The position numbers and the translations under genes are program-made. 64,000 nucleotides of DNA from Gemmatimonadetes bacterium 2013_60CM_65_52 (lineage in GTDB: Bacteria > Gemmatimonadota > Gemmatimonadetes > Gemmatimonadales > Gemmatimonadaceae): the NCBI GenBank assembly GCA_002215645.1, contig NGFI01000004.1, positions 491,244 through 555,243 of the forward strand, given 5' to 3'. A model generated the notes under the pieces. It did not search any database, was not told where the DNA came from, and saw only the letters and a program-made list of their open reading frames with translations. Within the stretch, counting starts at the first letter, position 1. Every line of letters begins with the position of its first letter. Shown one piece after another: positions 6,036 to 23,981 of the stretch.

Positions 6036-6601
6036 AACGTTGGCTTGCGCTCATCCTGCCCTTCGCTCTCGCGGGGTGCGGATACAATACGATCCAATCG
6101 CTCGACGAGCAGGCGAGCGCGGCACAGGGACAGATCGAGGTCCAACTGCAGCGGCGCGCGGATCTGGTTCCAAGTCTGGTGAACACCGTCAAGGGAATGG
6201 CGAATCAGGAGCTCGCCGTCTTCGGCGAAGTCGCCCGGGCACGCGGTGGACTGCTCGGTGCAATTCAGACCAAGGATCCCGAGCAGATGGCAAACGCGAG
6301 CGCCACGTTCAACGGCGCGCTGGGTCGGCTCCTCGCGGTCTCGGAAGCCTATCCGCAGCTCAAGAGCGATCAGGGCTTTCTGCGCCTTCAGGACGAGCTG
6401 GCGGGCACGGAGAACCGCATCGCCGTCGCGCGGACGGACTACAACTCCGCCGTGCAGCAATACAATTCATACATCCGTCGATTCCCCGCGGTTCTCACGG
6501 CCAAGATGACGGGTGCGCACGAGCGGAAGTACTTCCAGGTGACGAACGCCGCGAATCGCGAGCCGCCGCCGGTGAACTTCGGTCCGCCGCCGAAGTCCTG
6601 A
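6032..6601 (+). CDS. lemA: LemA family lipoprotein
   Basis: A 189-residue LemA protein. The N-terminus MKRWLALILPFALAGCGYN is a lipoprotein signal with a good lipobox (LAGC). The long-helix LemA core follows, with the family motif RRADLVPSLVNTVKGMANQE and ENRIAVARTDYNSAVQQYN. The family is membrane-attached and mostly of unknown function, often encoded beside TPM proteins as here. The start overlaps the stop of the nucleotidyltransferase gene by 4 bases, pointing to translational coupling. Downstream lies the tandem CACAGAG duplication and then the converging metG. Confidence 0.85.
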   Translation: MKRWLALILPFALAGCGYNTIQSLDEQASAAQGQIEVQLQRRADLVPSLVNTVKGMANQELAVFGEVARARGGLLGAIQTKDPEQMANASATFNGALGRLLAVSEAYPQLKSDQGFLRLQDELAGTENRIAVARTDYNSAVQQYNSYIRRFPAVLTAKMTGAHERKYFQVTNAANREPPPVNFGPPPKS

Positions 6602-6664
6602 GTCCGGAAAGAACGGCAGCGGGTGAGTGGTCTTGTTGCAAAGAACGGGGACTACTTGAATGAG

Positions 6665-6731
6665 CCACAGAGGCCACAGAGAGCACAGAGCTACGACGTA
6701 AGAGTCTCTGTGCTCTCTGTGCGCTCTGTGG
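6665..6731. repeat. CACAGAG palindrome, copy 1
   Basis: Two 26-nt arms (6665-6690 and 6706-6731) are inverted copies matching at 24 of 26 positions around a 15-nt loop. Each arm is three CACAGAG-like units at 8-9 nt spacing, beginning with CCACAGAGG. It lies between the converging lemA and metG genes, so it could form a transcript hairpin in either direction, but there is no T-tract. Confidence 0.9.
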
Positions 6732-6841
6732 TAAATGTTTTCAAGCGTCCCGCGGAAAGAGGAGGCATCTCCCTTATGGACCTTTAAGAAAGGCAGCGAG
6801 AGAGTTGTCTTGTTGCAACGAACACGAACTACTTGAATGAG

Positions 6842-6908
6842 CCACAGAGGCCACAGAGAGCACAGAGCTACGACGTAAGAGTCTCTATGCTCTCTGTGTG
6901 CTCTGTGG
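6842..6908. repeat. CACAGAG palindrome, copy 2
   Basis: Arms at 6842-6867 and 6883-6908 repeat copy 1 at an offset of 177 with a few changes (for example ctctatg for ctctgtg in the right arm). It ends 10 bases before the metG stop codon. Confidence 0.9.
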
Positions 6909-6917
6909 CAAATGTTT

Positions 6918-8444
6918 TCAAGCGTCCCGCGGAAAGAGTGCGTCTCCCTTGTGCACCTTCCACCCCTCGGCGTCCAGATCTTTCAGGTGGTGGAATCGTT
7001 GATCGAGCACCGCGCCCGGTCCGCCGATCTGATCCCATAGCGCCTGGGCCCGCTCCGGCATGAATGGCGCGAGAAGCACGGCCTGCCGGGCGAGTTGCCG
7101 CATCAATGACGTGAGGACGGCATCGAGGGCCTCGTCGTCCCCCTTCTTCGCGAGCACCCATGGCGCGGCCGACTGCACGAACTCGTTGCCGCGCGTCACA
7201 CAGGCCATGGCGTGCCGCAGCGCCTCGTGCAGCAGATAGCCGCGCGAGCCATCCATCGCCGCGTGATACCTCGCGATATCCTCGGCGTCGGCAGCGTCGG
7301 CGGCGTCCGGCACCCCGTGCGGAACCGTACCCGCGCGGTACTTCTCGACCATCGCGATGACCCGACTTGCCAGGTTGCCCCACGCGTTGGCCAGATCCGC
7401 CTCGTACCGCTCGTCGAAACGCTCCCAGGTAAAGCTGCCGTCGCCGTCGAACGGAACCTCGCGCAGCAGAAAATACCGCAGCGCGTCGGCGCCATGCCGC
7501 GCGATGGCTTCATCGACGTCGAGTCGGACGCCCGCGGACTTGCTGAAGCGCTCGCCGCTGAAGAGAACGAACCCGTGACCCCACACCCGAGCGGGCAACG
7601 GCAGCTCCGCGGCCTCGAGCATCGCCGGCCAGATGATGGTATGAAAGCGGGTGATGTCCTTCCCCACGATGTGTAACTGCGCCGGCCAGACTGCCGGACC
7701 GCGCTGCTCCGGAAATCCCGTCGCCGTGAGGTAGTTCGGCAGCGCTTCGAACCACACGTACGTGGTCTGCTGCTCTCCCGAGCTGAGCGGCTTGGGAAAA
7801 GGAATGCCCCACGCGAGTCGCGAGCGGCTTGCCGAGACGTCCTCGAGCCCGCGATCGATGAGTGCCAGCATCTCGTTCCTGCGGCTCTCGGGCTGAAGAA
7901 ACTGTGGATTCCCGCTGAGCAGCCGGCGAAGAAAGTCCGTGTAGCGGCTCAGGCGGAAGAACCAGTTGCGCTCCTCTACCCATTCCAGCGTGCGGGTCGG
8001 GTGAAGCACGCATTTTCCATCGGCGATCTCGGCGTCCTGCTTGAACGCCTCGCACCCGACGCAGTACCACCCCTCGTACGCCTTCTCGTAGAAGTCGTCC
8101 GGGTTGCGATCGAGAATGCGCGTGATGAGTGCCTGCACGCCCCTGCGATGCATCGCGTCCGTCGTGCGAACGAACTGGTCGTAGGAGATGCCGAGCCGTT
8201 GCCACATGGCAGAGAAGCGATCGGCAAGCCGGTCCACGAGCGCTTGTGGAGCGATGCCCTCCTGTGCGGCGGTCTGTTCGACCTTTTGCCCGTGCTCATC
8301 CATCCCGATGAGGAAGTGGACGTCGTCGCCACGAAGGCGATGATACCGGGCAATCGCATCCGCACCGATCTTCTCGTACGCATGACCGATGTGGGGATCA
8401 CCGTTGGCATAGTCGATCGCCGTGGTGAGAAAAAAACGAGTCAA
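6918..8444 (-). CDS. metG: Methionyl-tRNA synthetase
   Basis: A 508-residue class I synthetase that charges tRNA-Met in the cytoplasm. HIGH is intact in DPHIGHAYEK near residue 18, and the KMSKS loop is present as RFSKSAG. A single zinc knuckle is visible, CVGC with a following CVLH, typical of the shorter MetRS type without the C-terminal dimer domain. The start is TTG at 8444, directly abutting the TAA stop of ricT, with GGTGGAG upstream as ribosome-binding site. It is the last gene of the dnaE-accA-ricT-metG operon. Its 3' end forms one edge of the 177-bp tandem duplication. Confidence 0.95.
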   Translation of the reverse strand: MTRFFLTTAIDYANGDPHIGHAYEKIGADAIARYHRLRGDDVHFLIGMDEHGQKVEQTAAQEGIAPQALVDRLADRFSAMWQRLGISYDQFVRTTDAMHRRGVQALITRILDRNPDDFYEKAYEGWYCVGCEAFKQDAEIADGKCVLHPTRTLEWVEERNWFFRLSRYTDFLRRLLSGNPQFLQPESRRNEMLALIDRGLEDVSASRSRLAWGIPFPKPLSSGEQQTTYVWFEALPNYLTATGFPEQRGPAVWPAQLHIVGKDITRFHTIIWPAMLEAAELPLPARVWGHGFVLFSGERFSKSAGVRLDVDEAIARHGADALRYFLLREVPFDGDGSFTWERFDERYEADLANAWGNLASRVIAMVEKYRAGTVPHGVPDAADAADAEDIARYHAAMDGSRGYLLHEALRHAMACVTRGNEFVQSAAPWVLAKKGDDEALDAVLTSLMRQLARQAVLLAPFMPERAQALWDQIGGPGAVLDQRFHHLKDLDAEGWKVHKGDALFPRDA

Positions 8445-14103: not shown

Positions 14104-15216
14104 ATGACATCGGAACTAGTTGTCAGAAAAGGACTTAGGTGGGTCCGGCCAGCGTCTCGCGCGCTGGCCGCGCTGGTATTGTGCGGAGTGGCCGCATTCG
14201 CCCTCACCGCCGACGGACGCTACCTCGTGCGCGCCGGTTGGGAGGAGTCGAAGATCCTTGCGCGCCGGCGTCCGATAAGCGAATTGGTCACCGATCCGGC
14301 GACCTCCTCATCGGTACGCGAGCAGCTTCGAGTCGTGCAGGCTGCGCGATCCTTCGCCCACGATTCACTCGCCCTCTCGACCGGCCAAAGCTTCACGACC
14401 TTCAGCCGTCTCGACCGCGACACGTTGGTCCTCGTGCTGTCGGGAGCATACCGCGACCGCCTGAAGCCCCATACCTGGTGGTTCCCGGTCGTGGGGCGGG
14501 TGCCGTACAAGGGCTACTTCGATTTCGACGAAGCCCGCAGTCAGGCACGGCAACTCATCGCCCACGGATTCGACGCCAGGCTCGGCGCCGCCAGCGCCTT
14601 CAGCACGCTCGGATGGTTCAACGATCCTGTGCTGCCAACCACTCTCCGTGCCGATTCGCTGACGGTGGCCAACACGGTCATCCACGAGCTCACGCACAAC
14701 ACCTTTTACGCGCCCGGCAACGCGGTGTTCAACGAGAGCTTCGCCAACTTCGTCGGGTCACGCGGGGCAGAGCGGTTCTTCCGGTCGAGAGGCCAGCTCG
14801 GAGCGGCAGACGAAACCTCCGCGCGCTGGCAGGACGACAAGATCCTCGGCCGATTCTGGCAGGCGTTGTATGCGACCGTGGACTCGGTGTTCAATGCGCA
14901 TCCCGGCGATCAACCCGAGCGAGTTGCACAACGCATCGTGCTTCGCGACTCCATTTACAAGGTGGCGCTCGAAAGGCTGAAGCATGAGGTTGCGCCGCAG
15001 CTTCATACGATCAGCCCGCGAGCGCTGGAGCGCGTGCGGCTCGACAACGCCGTCTTGATGTCGCGTCGGATCTACGTGACGGGTCTCGACGAGTTCGATG
15101 CGGTCCTCGATCGCGACGGGGGCGATCTGCGTCGCGCGGTGCAGGATATCATCGCCGCGGTCAAGGGACGCGAGCGCGCGCCGTTCCGGGCATTGCATTC
15201 GCTCATCGCGCACTAA
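14104..15216 (+). CDS. Predicted membrane-anchored aminopeptidase (zinc, COG4324-like)
   Basis: A 370-residue protein with an N-terminal signal anchor (ALAALVLCGVAAFALTADG) and a periplasmic metallopeptidase-like domain. The zinc motif HELTHN (HExxH) is near residue 200, followed by the downstream Glu in FNESFANFVG, the arrangement of the predicted aminopeptidase family DUF2265. Other conserved blocks are VPYKGYFDFDEA and STLGWFNDPVLPT. Substrate and role are unknown. The ATG at 14104 is used; a GTG one codon earlier is equally possible. It is divergent from dnaE with a 54-base gap that must hold both promoters. A CACAGAG palindrome lies 63 bases downstream. Confidence 0.75.
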   Translation: MTSELVVRKGLRWVRPASRALAALVLCGVAAFALTADGRYLVRAGWEESKILARRRPISELVTDPATSSSVREQLRVVQAARSFAHDSLALSTGQSFTTFSRLDRDTLVLVLSGAYRDRLKPHTWWFPVVGRVPYKGYFDFDEARSQARQLIAHGFDARLGAASAFSTLGWFNDPVLPTTLRADSLTVANTVIHELTHNTFYAPGNAVFNESFANFVGSRGAERFFRSRGQLGAADETSARWQDDKILGRFWQALYATVDSVFNAHPGDQPERVAQRIVLRDSIYKVALERLKHEVAPQLHTISPRALERVRLDNAVLMSRRIYVTGLDEFDAVLDRDGGDLRRAVQDIIAAVKGRERAPFRALHSLIAH

Positions 15217-15278
15217 CCCGAGCATGCTTTCTGCGCCGGTCCCACTGTTGACTTGAGGGCAGCGAAGAAAAAATTGAA

Positions 15279-15351
15279 CCACAGAGCACACAGAGAGCAC
15301 AGAGAGGAAACAAAAAACCTGCGAATTCTCTGTGCCCTCTGTGTGCTCTGT
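15279..15351. repeat. CACAGAG palindrome, copy 3, upstream of the GxxExxY gene
   Basis: Arms at 15279-15304 and 15326-15351 are inverted and match at 25 of 26 positions; the loop is 21 nt and unrelated to copies 1 and 2. The arm is again three CACAGAG units beginning CCACAGAGCACAC. Translated on the minus strand it gives the low-complexity peptide NHRAHRGHRE...LCALCVLCG, which is a product of the repeat and not a gene. Confidence 0.9.
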
Positions 15352-15457
15352 GGTTCATTCGTCCGTCGCGTCTCTGTGGTTCTGTATCATTCTTGCGCTT
15401 CCGGATCTTTCTAGCTCGCCGACGAGACTCTCGTGACTTCGAGCAGCATGTTCGAGC

Positions 15458-15847
15458 ATGCCCAAAGCCGCCGGTTCCGAGCGCGATCCGCTCACCAACT
15501 CCATCCTCGGCGCCGCCATCGAAGTGCATCGCCACCTCGGGCCGGGCTTGCTGGAATCGATCTACGACGCCTGTCTGGCGTGGGAGCTGCGAGCCCGCGA
15601 TATCCGCATCGAGCGTCAGGTGCCGGTGCCTGTCATGTACAAGGGTCTGCAAGTCCCACTCGCCTATCGGCTCGATCTGGTTGTCGAGCAGTCGGTGATC
15701 GTGGAGGTCAAGGCCGTCGAGCGCCTGCACCCACTCGTCGATGCCCAGGTACTCACGTATCTCAGGCTGATGGGGATGCGGACCGCACTGATTCTCAACT
15801 TCAATGTGGGGCTGCTGCGGGATGGAGTGCGGAGACTGGTCCTCTAA
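15458..15847 (+). CDS. GxxExxY family protein (PD-(D/E)xK nuclease-like)
   Basis: A 129-residue protein with the family signature G30-LLE33-SIY36 inside HLGPGLLESIY. A nuclease-like core follows: D73 in YRLDLVV, then E83-V-K85 in IVEVKAVE, and Q97 in DAQVLTYL, which together match a PD-(D/E)xK active site. It probably cuts or binds nucleic acid, but no member that I know of has an established role. The gene stands alone. CACAGAG palindromes bracket it at 15279-15351 (106 bases upstream) and 15914-15986 (66 bases downstream). That bracket makes it a candidate for the enzyme acting on this repeat, by analogy with RAYT and REP pairs; this is an inference. Confidence 0.85.
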   Translation: MPKAAGSERDPLTNSILGAAIEVHRHLGPGLLESIYDACLAWELRARDIRIERQVPVPVMYKGLQVPLAYRLDLVVEQSVIVEVKAVERLHPLVDAQVLTYLRLMGMRTALILNFNVGLLRDGVRRLVL

Positions 15848-15913
15848 AAGTGAAAAGAGAGAGAGCTGGCGAAGGCGCGAGTAAAGAAACGTTACGAACG
15901 AACTTCCAATAAA

Positions 15914-15986
15914 CCACAGAGAACACAGAGCACACAGAGCACTGCGGCATCAAGGAAGAACTCTGTGCGCTCTGTGTCCTCTGTGG
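15914..15986. repeat. CACAGAG palindrome, copy 4, downstream of the GxxExxY gene
   Basis: Arms 15914-15939 and 15961-15986 are inverted and match at 24 of 26 positions, with a 21-nt loop. It lies between the GxxExxY stop and the stop of the converging membrane-protein gene. The arm order of spacer letters differs from copies 1-3, so copies have diverged in the spacers but kept pairing, which suggests that the pairing matters. Confidence 0.9.
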
Positions 15987-16013
15987 TCTATCGGGCTTGT
16001 GATCATTCTTTCA

Positions 16014-17975
16014 TCAGTTGAACGGAAGTAGTCGCACATCGATCTCTTCGCCGCGGCGCTCTACACGCGCGCCATACCACGCACGGTCGGGAAACCGCTG
16101 GCGAAGCACGCCATTGCGCGCTCCAAAATCTCGCGCGAATACCACGTCGCCATCCAGAACGCCCGATGCGTCAACGCGCTCGAACAGCATCAACTCCGCG
16201 AGGCTGGCTCCGTTGCCGCGCAACGTCTCGAGCTCGCGACCACACTCGGCATCGGGGGCGCGCGCCTGAACGAGCGCGATTTGCTCAGCGGGCGGAAGAT
16301 TCAACGGCATCGCCTCCACATCCGCGACCACAGCGCGCGCCACGACCTCGAGCTGCTGACCGGAGCGCGGATCGGGCATGATCTCGGCCTCGGCAATCGA
16401 GTGGATGAGCGTACATGCGTCGGCGTGCGACACGAGCTGCTCCGCCGCAAGCGGCCGCATGCCGAGCGCACCCAGCCGCGCGGTGAGCCGGCCGTGCAAC
16501 CCCTCCTGCACGAACACGACGGCGTGATGGATCTGCGCATCGCCGATCGCGCGCAAGATCGCTGGACCCACTGCGTGCATCCTGTACAACGACGCAAGTT
16601 GACGCACGCCGTACAACTGAAACTCCCGTATGGGCGCCGCCCAGGAGACGAGTAGCCACACGGGGACCAGCAGTGCCGCGGCGATCCGCGTCCTCAGAGT
16701 ACCGAGGCGGCTCATGAGGGTCATCGGAAATCGCGCCGTGTAGAGCACGAACACGGGAGCGAGCACAAAGAGAAATCGCGGGCCGACGAAGTAGTTCTCG
16801 GACCAGTAGCACGCGTACCCGAGGAGAAGGGCGGCCGCGAACCCGACGAGAAGCAGGTCCCATCTGGTGGCGCCTCGCAGTAGCCAGAGCCCGCCGGCAA
16901 CGAGAGCCATGGCAGGTACCGGCCATGCAAAGAGGCCGACGTCGAGCTTCATCAGGTACGCGGACGCCATGTACAGTGCACGCCGTGGCGTGTGCTCGAA
17001 GCCGAGCGGTGTCATATGGAAGCCGGGACGATGCTCCGGCCCGTTGAGAACGTCATACGCAAACGTGAAGGCGCTGCCGACCGTGGCGTGATTCGCATAG
17101 AGCAGGAGCGCCACCGGAATCGACATCGCCGCAAGCTCGACGAGCGGCGAGCGCCGGAGTGCCGGTCGAACAACGACTTCGCGAAGCTGAAACAGGCCGA
17201 TGCACGCCGCGGCAACCGCCGCGTCAAATGGCCGGATGGTTGCGGCGGCACCGAGGGAAAGACCGATCGCGGCAGCGGCGACGGCTCGCTGCCGTCCGGT
17301 GCCGGCTCCGCTCCATCGCGCGAGCGAGGCGAGCGCAATCCACACGAGAGCAAGAGCTCCCACGTGGTTCATCTCGCTCCCCGCCATCATCAGCACCCAC
17401 GGACACACGGCGAAGAGCAGGGCCGCGATGCGTGCCACACGTTCGTCGGTTGTGTGACTGAGGAAATCGTAGAAGGCCAGCGCCGCCACACCCGCCAGCA
17501 ACGGATTCACCAGCCACGCCGCGTGCGCAATGGCCCCCGCGGCGAGAAGTAGCGGACCGCCGATGGGGAACTGCGCGAACCATCGGCCGTTTACCGTGAG
17601 CGTCTCGACCGTGGAGAAGAACTCGGGATGCAGCTCCGCCCGTGCGCTGAGGTGTCCCGATGCGAGCAGCATCGCCTGCCAGCGCTGCGCGAACTCGTCG
17701 CCGACGACAGCGTGCAGGCCGAACAACCACCATCCCGTCGCGAGAGCGAGCCCCGTGGTCAGCAGTGCGACGAGCAGCGCAAATGTTCGTCGGGACGGTA
17801 GGAACAGGAGTCGATCCGCGGCCGCGAGGAATTGCTGCGTTGCCTCCGTCGCCAGACATGCTACGGCGATCGCCGCGGCTGGAACGATAACCGCCCAGGC
17901 CAACCATTGCCGCACCGCTGTGGACCACCATGGCAAACCCGTACCGGTGGTCACGAGATTCGCCGTCGGAATCAC
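16014..17975 (-). CDS. Polytopic membrane protein, GT-C glycosyltransferase-like
   Basis: A 653-residue protein with about 10-11 hydrophobic helices in its first 460 residues and a soluble C-terminal part. The first large loop carries Asp residues (VVGDEFAQRW) and a FPIGGPLLLA segment, as in GT-C mannosyl/arabinosyl transferases that use polyprenyl-linked sugars; GSEMNHVGALA and FVGPRFLFVLAP are further polar marks. The substrate cannot be inferred and it may be an unrelated membrane protein. The GTG at 17975 is the first standard start, but the frame stays open and hydrophobic upstream (KLFAAALTLLA), and a good AGGAG lies 6 nt before a CTG at 18038, so the true start may be that CTG. It follows the helicase gene on the same strand. 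Confidence 0.6.
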   Translation of the reverse strand: MIPTANLVTTGTGLPWWSTAVRQWLAWAVIVPAAAIAVACLATEATQQFLAAADRLLFLPSRRTFALLVALLTTGLALATGWWLFGLHAVVGDEFAQRWQAMLLASGHLSARAELHPEFFSTVETLTVNGRWFAQFPIGGPLLLAAGAIAHAAWLVNPLLAGVAALAFYDFLSHTTDERVARIAALLFAVCPWVLMMAGSEMNHVGALALVWIALASLARWSGAGTGRQRAVAAAAIGLSLGAAATIRPFDAAVAAACIGLFQLREVVVRPALRRSPLVELAAMSIPVALLLYANHATVGSAFTFAYDVLNGPEHRPGFHMTPLGFEHTPRRALYMASAYLMKLDVGLFAWPVPAMALVAGGLWLLRGATRWDLLLVGFAAALLLGYACYWSENYFVGPRFLFVLAPVFVLYTARFPMTLMSRLGTLRTRIAAALLVPVWLLVSWAAPIREFQLYGVRQLASLYRMHAVGPAILRAIGDAQIHHAVVFVQEGLHGRLTARLGALGMRPLAAEQLVSHADACTLIHSIAEAEIMPDPRSGQQLEVVARAVVADVEAMPLNLPPAEQIALVQARAPDAECGRELETLRGNGASLAELMLFERVDASGVLDGDVVFARDFGARNGVLRQRFPDRAWYGARVERRGEEIDVRLLPFN

Positions 17976-20139: not shown

Positions 20140-20635
20140 GACACATAGTATAGGGTGATGACCGAACGTCTGCCGAAGCCTCCCGATGCGGGTGTTGCGT
20201 GTGACGGGTTGACCGGTGGGGCGTCTTGAGACGGTTTCCAGAGCGGACAGAAGGGCCGAACGCACGATTCAGGCGGACGAATTGCCTGCATTGGCGAGTG
20301 GTTTGCAGCACGAGCCGTGACTCCAGTCACGGACACGAGAGCAGTGATGAGATATGGTCGTCGTCCTCGACGGCCCTTAGCGCCGATAGGGTGTTGGGAT
20401 GGGTGGGTCACTTGACCACCCTTTCCTGGCGCCGTATCTTCGGTCGATTGCGCGTCGAAGGCACGAAGTGTCTGCGGTTGAGGGGCCGGGTGGTTTCCCT
20501 CGTTGGTCCGCCGAGTGAGGCGCTTCTGTGTGAATGACTCCGCCGATGTGGGCGGTGTGGGACCAGGCGGGAATTCAGTGTCCGTAGTTCCAGTTTCGTA
20601 GTTGTATGTCCACGCACCATTCCTCAGGGGGAAGA
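20140..20635. other. Intergenic region between helicase and Ig-like lipoprotein genes
   Basis: These 496 bases lie between divergent genes and hold no convincing gene: short open frames on both strands are Arg/Pro-rich and lack ribosome-binding sites. One imperfect hairpin or operator-like element is seen at 20401-20421 (gggtgggtcac facing ttgaccaccc). The purine-rich site at 20626-20634 is the ribosome-binding site of the lipoprotein gene. I see no clear sigma-70 promoter. Confidence 0.5.
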
Positions 20636-23356
20636 ATGCAAAAGGTTTCTCGTTCGCTACTGCTCGCCGGTGTGCTGGCGTTCGGTACGCTCGTGGCGGC
20701 CTGCGGCGACAAGGTAGAAGTCGCTGCACCCGTTCCCGCGCAGACCGGCGTATTCAGCGTCACGGTATCGCCGTCCAACGCGACCATCAATGTCGGCGCG
20801 ACGATTCAGCTTGCTGTTTCGGTCACCGCCGATGCCACCACGGACAAGTCCGTGACGTGGAGCTCCAGCAGTCCCGCCGTTGCCACGGTCGATGCGGCCG
20901 GCAAAGTGACGGGTGTTACCGCCGGAACCGTGACCGTTACGGCCACGTCCAAGGCGGATGCCTCGAAGGCGAGCGCCGCGGCCATCACGGTGCAGGCGGT
21001 CTCGACGCCGATCACGGTGCCGCCGTCGATCGCGATCAACAGCGTCACGACGTCCGCGAGTGGCATTTCAGTCCCGGTGAACCTCAGCAACGTCGCTGGC
21101 CAGATCGACATCACGGTCAACACGTCGGGCGGCGGTCTCATCGAGGTGTTCCTCTCGGCGAGCTGCAGCACGAACACGATCAGCGCATCTGACGGTGCCG
21201 CGGTTGCGTCGCAGACGGCGACGTCCGCGCAGGCCGGCTCGATCACGCTGAGCGTGAACACGGCGCAGTTGACCTCGGCGAACGTTCCGCGTTTCCCGAA
21301 CGGCAACTACTGCGTCAAGGCGCGTCTGACCAATGGCGCCACGGTGGTTGTTGCGACGAACACCGTTCCGCTGACGCTGAACAACCTCAACGTCTTCAAG
21401 GCGACGCAGTCGTTCGCTTCGCAGACGGGCGGTCCGACCACGGCGGTCAGCTCGATCAACGGTCTGAACTACAACCAGGGCACGCTGACGGTGACGATCA
21501 CTCCGGTGATCTTCACGAGCTCCACGCAGGCGGCACTGATCTCCGGCTACTTCACGCGGAACGGTGAGCAGAACTCCGTGGCGCCGCCAACGGGCAACGC
21601 TGCATTCACGAACGTTGCGGTGACCAGCGGCACGGCCACCATCGCAATGACCGATACCGGCTCGTCCGCCGGCGTCCGGTCGATCTTCGCATATCAGTCG
21701 CTGCCTGCTGGCGACACGCTGTACATCACGTCCATCACGGACGCGTCGGGCAACCCGATCACCGTTACCCCGACGCCTGGCTTCCCGGCGTTCTCGGTCA
21801 TCGGTGTGCAGGGCGTTCGCATCGACAACGATGCGCCGACCCTTGCCGCGGCGTACGCGGTCACCGCTCCGAACGGCTACATCGGTGCGGCCTATTCGTT
21901 CGCGAGTGGCATCACCGCTCCGGCATCGTCCGACGTGAAGGCTGGCGTCGCCGGCGTCGGTGGCGTGACCACCACGTGGTATGTTGGTGCGGCTGGTGCG
22001 GCGGCGTTCGCGCCGGCCACCTCGTGCTCCACGACCGGCCTGACGGCCGCCGCGGTCGGCACGGACCTCGCCAACACGACGGCTACCAATGCCGATCAGG
22101 CGAAGGTCGTCGTCTCTGATGCGCTGGGCAACAAGATCTGCACGAACGTCGCGAGCACCTTCGCGGGCGGCCTGTTCGGTGTCGACAAGATTCCGCCTTC
22201 GGTCGTGTTCTCGACCAGCAACAACGGCGCGTCTGACCTGACGGGCTACAACGTGTCGAAGAACTGGAGCTTCATCTACAACGACACGATCTCCGGCTTC
22301 AACCCGGCGCTGCCGCTCAAGGGCACGCTGACGCGCAACTTCTTCACCGCAGGCTCGGGTGCAGCGGTTGATTGCGTCATCGGTACCTATGCCGCCACGC
22401 CGAAGACCTGCGCGGCTGCCGCGTTCGGACCGACCTCCACGTTCGGCACGCCGCCGACCGCTGGTGGATCGATCGAGTTCACGAACGGCACAGCAGTGGT
22501 TGGCTACTACCTGATGAGCGCATTCGCAGTGGATCAGGCTAGCAACGTGAGCCCGACGATCACGCGTCAGGCTGCGTTCGACAACGTTGCTCCGGCTGTC
22601 AGCGCCTTGACGCAGTCTCCGGCTGCGGTGGCCTCGCTCGGCACCGTGACGGTCAGCGGCACGGCGACGGACAACTTCGACCTCGCATCATCGAAGGGTA
22701 ACCTGCAGTATTCGCCTGCTGGCTACGTCCTCGTGACCGTTCCGTTCGCCAGTGTGGCGGGAACGTCCTTCGGTACGAAGTTCGTAGCAGCGAACATCGT
22801 GACGAGTGGCGCGGTATCGGTGGCGCTCTCGAACGTGTACCGTGGCCTCCAGGGCACGGACGCCGCCAACAATGTCCTCGCCGGTGGGTCGGCTCCTGCA
22901 GCCCAGGTTACCGTCACGGACGTTGGCACCAACACGGCGACATCAGCTCCGCTGACGATTGCTACATCGACGGCAAAGGCTGACATCCTGCTCACCAGCA
23001 ACACGTTCTCCGGCACGCCGACCAGTGCGGCTCCGGCGACGACGCAGGCGTCGACCACGATCACGATCCGCGTTGGCGGTCTGGTTGCCGATCCGGCCTT
23101 CCAGAGCCAGCCGTTCGCGCAGATCGACGTCTACAAGTGCACCAACACCTCGGCGAACTGCGCGACTGGTCAGCTTGCACTCGTTGCAAACACGACGCTC
23201 GCCGCAGTAACTGATATCGGTGCCAACCGCACGTACACGTACTCCGCCGGTGGTCTGGCCCTTACGGCCACCGCGGTGAACACGTTCTTCCTCGTCGGCC
23301 GCAATGCCGCAGGGGATGCGGTCATCTCGCAGCCGATCACCGTCACCAACCCGTAA
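20636..23356 (+). CDS. Large Ig-like (Big_2) surface lipoprotein
   Basis: A 906-residue secreted protein. The signal is LLLAGVLAFGTLVAACGD with lipobox VAAC. Residues about 40-120 form a bacterial Ig-like Big_2 domain (VSPSNATINVGATIQLAVSV, then VTWSSSSPAVATVDAAGKVT). The rest is Thr/Ser/Ala/Gly-rich beta-sandwich-like sequence with recurring phrases such as IDNDAPTLAAAY and FDNVAPAVSALTQSP, suggesting several more Ig-like modules. It probably sits on the outer membrane as an adhesin or structural protein; no ligand is evident. The start is ATG 20636 with ggggga upstream, rather than the ATG 10 codons earlier. It is monocistronic with a strong terminator at 23391. Few Lys and Arg residues, as usual for such surface proteins. 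Confidence 0.8.
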   Translation: MQKVSRSLLLAGVLAFGTLVAACGDKVEVAAPVPAQTGVFSVTVSPSNATINVGATIQLAVSVTADATTDKSVTWSSSSPAVATVDAAGKVTGVTAGTVTVTATSKADASKASAAAITVQAVSTPITVPPSIAINSVTTSASGISVPVNLSNVAGQIDITVNTSGGGLIEVFLSASCSTNTISASDGAAVASQTATSAQAGSITLSVNTAQLTSANVPRFPNGNYCVKARLTNGATVVVATNTVPLTLNNLNVFKATQSFASQTGGPTTAVSSINGLNYNQGTLTVTITPVIFTSSTQAALISGYFTRNGEQNSVAPPTGNAAFTNVAVTSGTATIAMTDTGSSAGVRSIFAYQSLPAGDTLYITSITDASGNPITVTPTPGFPAFSVIGVQGVRIDNDAPTLAAAYAVTAPNGYIGAAYSFASGITAPASSDVKAGVAGVGGVTTTWYVGAAGAAAFAPATSCSTTGLTAAAVGTDLANTTATNADQAKVVVSDALGNKICTNVASTFAGGLFGVDKIPPSVVFSTSNNGASDLTGYNVSKNWSFIYNDTISGFNPALPLKGTLTRNFFTAGSGAAVDCVIGTYAATPKTCAAAAFGPTSTFGTPPTAGGSIEFTNGTAVVGYYLMSAFAVDQASNVSPTITRQAAFDNVAPAVSALTQSPAAVASLGTVTVSGTATDNFDLASSKGNLQYSPAGYVLVTVPFASVAGTSFGTKFVAANIVTSGAVSVALSNVYRGLQGTDAANNVLAGGSAPAAQVTVTDVGTNTATSAPLTIATSTAKADILLTSNTFSGTPTSAAPATTQASTTITIRVGGLVADPAFQSQPFAQIDVYKCTNTSANCATGQLALVANTTLAAVTDIGANRTYTYSAGGLALTATAVNTFFLVGRNAAGDAVISQPITVTNP

Positions 23357-23418: not shown

Positions 23419-23446
23419 TTGTATTCACGGCTCAAAGAACGAAAAA

Positions 23447-23478
23447 GCGGCGGGGACGCAGTTCTGCGTCCCCGCCGC
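23447..23478 (-). terminator. Intrinsic terminator for the small lipoprotein gene
   Basis: A perfect 14-bp stem (23447-23460 with 23465-23478) and 4-nt loop. Read on the minus strand it is followed by TTTTTC, so it ends the transcript of the lipoprotein gene whose stop is at 23514. The two opposed terminators separate the converging genes. Confidence 0.88.
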
Positions 23479-23513
23479 CTTTCCCTTCTCACTCTTTCGA
23501 AGAGCTATCCTGT

Positions 23514-23903
23514 TTATCGCTTCTTGACCGGAATCTTGTGCGACGTGTAGAGGCTGTCGATGTAGCTCCAGCCCTTGCCCACCACGCGACGATCGATCAT
23601 CGCAATCGGCGTCAGGTCCTTCCACGGGATCGTGTCCTTCTGCACTCCGATGAACGCATGGCGGCCCGTGGGGGAGAAGTACATGATCTCGTAGTTCTTG
23701 CCATCGATCAGATACCGCTCCTGCATGTAGACGTTGGGCAGCGAATCCACCCCCGGCGCCTCCTTGCCGATGACGGTGAGCAGGGAATCACGCGTGATCC
23801 CCGTGTCCACTCCCTTCACCCGCTTATCCGTACAGGCGCCGAGCAGCATCATGCCGCTGAGCGCCACGAGCGCGTGCCTTCGCCCTCTGACGAAACTGTT
23901 CAT
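23514..23903 (-). CDS. Small lipoprotein of unknown function
   Basis: A 129-residue protein with a lipoprotein signal (ALVALSGMMLLGACTDK, lipobox LGAC). The mature part has no family I recognise; it contains MYFSPTGRHAFIGVQKDTIPW and a basic end (KIPVKKR). The start is ATG 23903, preceded by aggag at good spacing; the open frame upstream is not likely coding. It is separate from the lipB operon, whose last gene ends 79 bases upstream of this start, and it has its own terminator at 23447-23478. Confidence 0.7.
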   Translation of the reverse strand: MNSFVRGRRHALVALSGMMLLGACTDKRVKGVDTGITRDSLLTVIGKEAPGVDSLPNVYMQERYLIDGKNYEIMYFSPTGRHAFIGVQKDTIPWKDLTPIAMIDRRVVGKGWSYIDSLYTSHKIPVKKR

Positions 23904-23981
23904 CGATGCTCCTGGTTGGTGGGGGCGAGGACGGCTTGGCGCAATGGTTGGCGGCCCGCCGATCGCTCGCACCCCCGAAAT

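Follow-up and report, generated by a model that had tools for sequence, protein, structure and literature searches.

A GxxExxY-family predicted nuclease gene and its flanking periodic palindromes suggest a little-known selfish DNA system in many bacterial phyla

Here we show that bacterial genes of the GxxExxY family, which encode a small predicted PD-(D/E)xK nuclease, are bracketed, much more often than chance predicts, by long palindromes with periodic arms, that these palindromes are dispersed in a genome-specific manner, and that gene and palindrome are present or absent at orthologous sites in related genomes. Protein and arm sequences have diversified together, and active-site residues are retained together with the arms. 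The data suggest that nuclease and repeat constitute a little-known selfish DNA system present in many bacterial phyla, in which the gene and its flanking palindrome are probably two parts of one element whose solo copies spread in trans.

Results

A GxxExxY gene between two periodic palindromes

The window analysed here is a stretch of 64,000 nucleotides from a contig of Gemmatimonadetes bacterium 2013_60CM_65_52. Its GxxExxY gene (15458..15847, + strand, 129 amino acids) lies between two palindromes, to which, as to all palindromes below, no strand is assigned. The left one (15275..15357) has 31-nt arms (15275-15305 and 15327-15357) with 97% complementarity, each made of three CACAGAG heptamers at 9-nt spacing; the right one (15908..15989), located 3' of the gene, belongs to the same family and likewise has three CACAGAG heptamers per arm. 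A preliminary description of this DNA had reported two 73-nt palindromes around the gene, with 26-nt arms matching at 24-25 of 26 positions. The bracketing stands, and so do the arms, the outer 26 nt of which match at 25/26 positions in the left copy and 24/26 in the right; the uniform length does not, since the distance from CCACAGAG to CTCTGTGG spans 67-75 nt. GxxExxY is the only open reading frame recognised between the two palindromes, and no known transposase is found there. The element adjoins the 3' end of a conserved upstream neighbour (14137..15216, + strand), through which the orthologous site was located in ten congeneric genomes, and is followed by a convergent downstream neighbour (16014..17975, - strand).

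Two solo palindromes without a gene, copies 3 and 4, are present at 6660..6733 and 6837..6910, about 8 kb away as first described, and the outer 26 nt of their arms (6665-6731 and 6842-6908) match at 24/26 and 23/26 positions. They are not independent copies, because both lie in one 177-bp tandem duplication, which takes in palindrome and flanking intergenic sequence (window 6600-6960). A similar tandem amplification of palindrome plus flank, with a unit of ~217 bp in four copies, was observed in a related genome (G296, contig C137, locus L295), while the site in G268 (L299) looks single-copy. Elsewhere in the window (23436-23489), a GC-rich hairpin with 26-nt arms (GCGGCGGGGACGCAG) sits between convergent open reading frames at 20606-23356 (+) and 23514-23972 (-); its sequence is unrelated to the CACAGAG palindromes and it is probably an ordinary bidirectional terminator.

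The encoded protein is a predicted PD-(D/E)xK nuclease

Profile searches bear out the assignment of the gene as GxxExxY-like: residues 12-127 of the protein match TIGR04256 (140.8 bits against a cut-off of 35, E 2.4e-41), and the only Pfam match above cut-off is PF13366 (PDDEXK_3; 138.2 bits against a cut-off of 22, E 2e-40). The family residues G28, G30, E33 and Y36 are intact, as are the active-site residues D73, E83xK85, Q97 and Y101 of a predicted PD-(D/E)xK nuclease; D73, K85 and Y101 are retained in 90/90 Gemmatimonadota GxxExxY copies. An AlphaFold2 model of the window protein (pLDDT 91.5) gave Cas4-, Hjc- and restriction-endonuclease-like structural matches, the best with VIA-align being Cas4 SSO0001 (Z 9.1, 98 residues, 3.3 A), with the archaeal Holliday-junction resolvase Hjc also matched (Z 6.9, 86 residues, 3.2 A). 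Foldseek with the same predicted model returned nothing at E below 0.001, and no solved structure homologous by sequence was found for GxxExxY. The Z score of 9.1 between the predicted model and Cas4 is evidence of fold and says nothing on function. Thus GxxExxY resembles the RecB/Cas4/Hjc nucleases in predicted fold and in the D...ExK...Q-x3-Y pattern, but is marginal to them by sequence: the Pfam Cas_Cas4 profile gives 11.5 bits against a cut-off of 22.7 (E 0.32), and the PADLOC Cas4 profile E 0.055. Identity as a phage or defence gene was considered and rejected, as PHROGs profiles gave no match to GxxExxY and PADLOC only marginal ones.

GxxExxY genes are often bracketed by inverted arms within and beyond the phylum

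Within the phylum, GxxExxY is patchily distributed, occurring in 96/298 genomes at 1-9 copies each. We scored bracketing by aligning the left flank of each gene to the reverse complement of its right flank. Of 87 GxxExxY genes, 47 reached an arm score of >=16 and 39 a score of >=20; among 464 dummy positions at the same loci, the proportions were 0.65% and 0/464. When real neighbouring open reading frames of Gemmatimonadota were used for comparison, inverted arms were found at 29/58 GxxExxY genes and at 6/225 neighbours (p 7e-18). Left flanks seldom match right flanks from elsewhere, which makes the arms locus-specific. A clear inverted arm pair is missing at roughly half of the Gemmatimonadota genes, and several of those inspected carry a whole palindrome on one side. 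A number of draft contigs (L112, L113, L068 and others) break off only tens of bases away from a GxxExxY gene, as would be expected if the flanking palindromes disrupt assembly, and numbers obtained from draft genomes are thus minimum values.

Arms of differing sequence also flank GxxExxY loci of Chloroflexi, Verrucomicrobia, Planctomycetota, Bacteroidales, Acidobacteria, Gammaproteobacteria and Parachlamydiales, and occur in Bacteroides, Bernardetia and Sphingomonas plasmid records. Enrichment of palindromes near GxxExxY genes, which the preliminary description had put forward as a check on the pairing, is thus seen both inside the phylum and outside it. A Treponema locus has an 11-nt pair only, and in Prevotella nigrescens (L336:2350-3000) the gene is flanked by direct-repeat-like ACAAATC units with no clear inverted arms.

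Arm units are conserved within genomes while spacers drift

The palindromes range in size from about 67 to 125 bp. Their arm units differ among loci (CACAGAG, CGCGGAG, CACGAAG, CGCAAAG, CACGGAA, CACGGAT, ACAGGAT) and share a period near 9 nt. Layouts also vary: the gene often occupies the loop, with a half-arm to its left and right; at other loci, such as that of the window, it has a whole palindrome on each side, and at still others on one side only. At one Gemmatimonadota locus (L130:4500-5900) the arms to either side of the gene have expanded into long tandem arrays (arm score 237), and at a Sphingomonas locus (L334:2489-2917), where the gene stands between fabD and fabG, the right arm is translated as a C-terminal tail of GxxExxY. 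An apparent inversion of the loop between the G268 and G296 copies was rejected, one contig merely being in reverse orientation.

Strong hairpins are predicted for the palindromes. Spacer letters had been described as changing jointly on both arms, which does not hold: the first spacers read GC versus CG in copy 3 and GC versus CA in copy 4, and across 14 copies in the same genome 8/28 spacer dinucleotides match, versus 5.2 expected and a shuffle maximum of 14. Eight copies in a second genome (G269) show no co-variation beyond the consensus. In both genomes the heptamers are preserved, with spacers changing independently of one another; base-pairing as the selective force was therefore rejected, given spacers that do not co-vary between arms inside a genome. 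One compensatory change was seen at an orthologous site in G296, and quasi-palindrome correction is equally able to produce it. Conservation of the repeated unit itself is thus better explained by a protein recognising the sequence, or by recent spread from a single source, than by pairing. In Rfam, the palindrome reaches no family at gathering score and has only sub-threshold matches to microRNA hairpins.

Palindromes are dispersed in genomes that carry the gene

The source genome (4.2 Mb, 14 contigs) contains exactly one GxxExxY gene and dozens of CACAGAG palindromes, with 107 raw, overlapping matches to the palindrome pattern versus 0 for a reversed-pattern control. To cover other arm types, we combined 17 palindromes lying next to GxxExxY genes, one from each genome (with a second copy from the same locus in two cases), into a composite query and searched it in the 17 source genomes and 13 gene-less ones, counting only places over 3 kb away from the gene of origin. 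Each palindrome proved largely particular to its own genome: at least 71 distant places lie in source genomes and at least 4 elsewhere, the latter confined to genomes of the same genus, and the 13 gene-less genomes have none among the matches listed.

Of the 96 genomes with the gene, 36 have three or more hits of a degenerate CRCRGAG palindrome pattern, against 5 of the 202 without it (p 2e-15, with genomes treated as independent); within the organism's own family the counts were 23/68 and 0/35. Five gene-less genomes nonetheless contain palindromes. The exact CACAGAG pattern was detected in 7/298 genomes, and the gene is present in 6 of these. These association tests, like the Mantel test below, are made on related genomes, with kinship corrected in part only; in the co-occurrence counts this is done by the family strata. 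The search for the arm sequence over genome and relatives that the preliminary description had proposed finds each palindrome dispersed almost only in the genome whose own GxxExxY gene carries it.

Orthologous sites are filled, empty or occupied by another palindrome

A GxxExxY gene was not found at the window junction in any of the nine further genomes that represent the genus, one of which (G299) has a contig ending before the junction. Three of the nine relatives have in its place an empty convergent spacer of 53-92 nt, across which the downstream neighbour follows the upstream gene directly; four show a different neighbouring gene and lack the element; and in G303 the junction holds a different, CACGGAT-type palindrome, which matches both sides of one of that genome's own GxxExxY genes. 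In a second genus (g4), some species have an orthologous GxxExxY gene with a palindrome at its 3' end, differing in sequence by species, and others have neither gene nor palindrome at the site.

Ten solo copies in G269, 113-123 bp long, have sharp ends (GAACTG...CAGTTC) and appear, judging from open reading frames, to lie between convergent genes; its congeners have the same gene junctions with the palindromes absent. No target-site duplication is evident at the ten copies, and the empty sites are too diverged to define an exact junction. A 90%-identical gene-less junction in G289 represents a deletion with a 14-nt scar, so that a precise empty site with target duplication was not obtained. 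Gain or loss at orthologous sites, another check proposed at the outset, is borne out by the filled, empty and other-palindrome states found. Separately, an orthologous solo palindrome in two close species (L290 and L291) is better conserved than the surrounding intergenic DNA, hinting at selection or gene conversion acting on solo copies.

Protein and arms diversify together

Similarity between GxxExxY proteins correlates with similarity between their arms (Mantel rho 0.23, p 0.0005; related genomes, kinship partly corrected). Protein class predicts both the period and the composition of the arms, the GPG class being associated with shorter-period, GAG-rich arms (p<0.001), and paralogues within one genome can have different arms (L128 versus L139 in G019; L086 versus L337 in Gemmatirosa). 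In Variovorax, 17 GxxExxY copies located between trpE-like and trpG-like genes (L044-L062 minus L047 and L048) have no periodic arms; Y101 is lost in 17/17 of them and D73 in 16/17, all representing a single clade at one locus. On this sequence evidence the trp-operon gene is apparently a domesticated, catalytically dead copy.

Discussion

We favour a model in which the palindrome arms, built of heptamer-like repeats with a period of about 9 nt, would act as recognition ends, with the gene placed between two half-arms or two whole palindromes. The PD-(D/E)xK nuclease would bind the repeated units and may cut at or near the palindrome, possibly when this is extruded as a hairpin or cruciform; repair could then move or copy the palindrome, often into 3'-3' intergenic spacers. 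Solo palindromes would be derivatives lacking the gene, mobilised in trans by the GxxExxY of the same genome in the way that RAYTs are thought to spread REPs. The proposal that GxxExxY is the processing or mobilising enzyme of this repeat family thus divides into two parts. Pairing of gene and repeat is well supported, because enrichment at the genes and gain or loss at sites were both found; cleavage and transposition by the protein are inferred.

Since transposition by GxxExxY belongs to the inferred part, a RAYT, an insertion sequence or host repair might instead move the palindromes, with GxxExxY hitch-hiking between copies that happen to arise close by, and the palindromes of the five gene-less genomes would fit such a passenger role. 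We regard this as unlikely, given that the gene recurs between arms of unrelated sequence in many phyla, that neighbouring open reading frames are almost never bracketed, that dispersal tracks the gene's own arm type, and that the Variovorax copies lose the active site along with the arms. Slightly less probable still is a homing process, in which GxxExxY cuts solo palindromes and repair through arm homology copies the gene into the loop, the palindromes themselves spreading by other means. Many loci do have the gene in the loop between half-arms, so that a solo palindrome looks like an empty site, and the predicted PD-(D/E)xK fold would suit such a role; homing leaves unexplained, however, both the expansion of the gene's own palindrome type in its genome and loci such as that of the window, with a whole palindrome on each side.

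Two further explanations appear highly improbable. The palindromes could be bidirectional terminators or mRNA-stability hairpins that GxxExxY tolerates or needs for expression, as the strong predicted hairpins and the apparently convergent setting of the ten G269 solo copies might imply. Yet the arms stand on both sides of the gene, and changes in their spacers go uncompensated, so that conservation does not bear on pairing; nor would terminators be expected to form genome-specific families or to be missing from orthologous sites. The suggestion that the repeat merely regulates GxxExxY is disfavoured as well. Least probable of all, by a small step, is a quality-control function, with GxxExxY removing or trimming palindromes in the manner of SbcCD and lying near them because they auto-regulate the gene. 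Structural similarity to Cas4 and to the archaeal Holliday-junction resolvase is compatible with it, as is the near-precise palindrome loss with a 14-nt scar in G289, but gene-carrying genomes have more palindromes rather than fewer, and dispersal fits the resident arm type.

Returning to the selfish-element reading, we lean by a modest margin of belief towards its broadest form, in which a widespread and so far undescribed class of mobile palindromes has GxxExxY proteins as its dedicated nucleases, each enzyme variant recognising its own ~9-nt-periodic arm, with gene-less copies mobilised in trans. If this is true, a single enzyme family serves repeats of the CACAGAG, GCAAAG, ACAGGAT and CACGGAT types, a large group of nucleases whose name reflects nothing but a motif gains a first concrete function, and there is an explanation of where the many periodic palindromes in genomes of environmental bacteria come from. 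It would also represent a second, independent solution to the job that RAYTs do for REPs, REP-like systems having arisen more than once with unrelated enzymes. These loci also offer a natural set of nuclease/target pairs: because the arm unit changes with the class of protein, sequence comparison could reveal how small PD-(D/E)xK proteins recognise DNA.

The pairing had been described as lacking an established account, and none was found in open papers. In those parts of the open literature that were accessible, mentions of GxxExxY did not concern repeats; neither TIGR04256 nor CACAGAGACACAGAG is mentioned in the open literature searched, PF13366 is mentioned rarely, and papers on palindromes and nucleases lead to RAYT, REP and MITE rather than to this pairing. 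Its novelty is likely rather than certain, because most subscription journals and all preprints lie outside the scope of the search.

Among known systems, MITEs and their parent insertion sequences are similar in that short, non-autonomous inverted-repeat elements exist beside gene-carrying relatives. They differ from GxxExxY elements, in which the repeats enclose no known transposase and the arms are internally periodic, the whole element being nearly one palindrome; the ten solo copies in G269 show no evident target-site duplication. TIRtrons, in which a RAYT-like enzyme (TIRYT) is flanked by long inverted repeats, some of them forming dispersed families (PMC3733652), share with GxxExxY an enzyme gene between inverted repeats of which some are dispersed; TIRYTs, however, keep the HUH motif and catalytic tyrosine, whereas GxxExxY is of another family and fold.

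The closest parallel is REP/RAYT. In these REPtrons an enzyme gene is flanked by palindromes that also form genome-specific families of solo copies in intergenic DNA, with several enzyme/palindrome pairs per genome and a patchy distribution (PMC2817692, PMC3733652, PMC3116915). GxxExxY genes likewise have at their flanks palindromes whose family is scattered through the genome that carries the gene, with several enzyme/palindrome pairs in some genomes and a patchy distribution. RAYTs are HUH (Y1) tyrosine transposases, in contrast to the ~130-amino-acid PD-(D/E)xK protein described here, and REPs measure 20-40 bp, many with a GTAG tag, as opposed to palindromes of about 67-125 bp with ~9-nt-periodic arms; a GTAG (or CGTC) tag is absent from the ends of the aligned GxxExxY palindrome copies. 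GxxExxY therefore appears to work like REP/RAYT without being a member of that group, because it has neither an HUH enzyme nor short tagged REPs, and the likeness first proposed is a fair one when taken as a functional analogy between enzymes that are unrelated.
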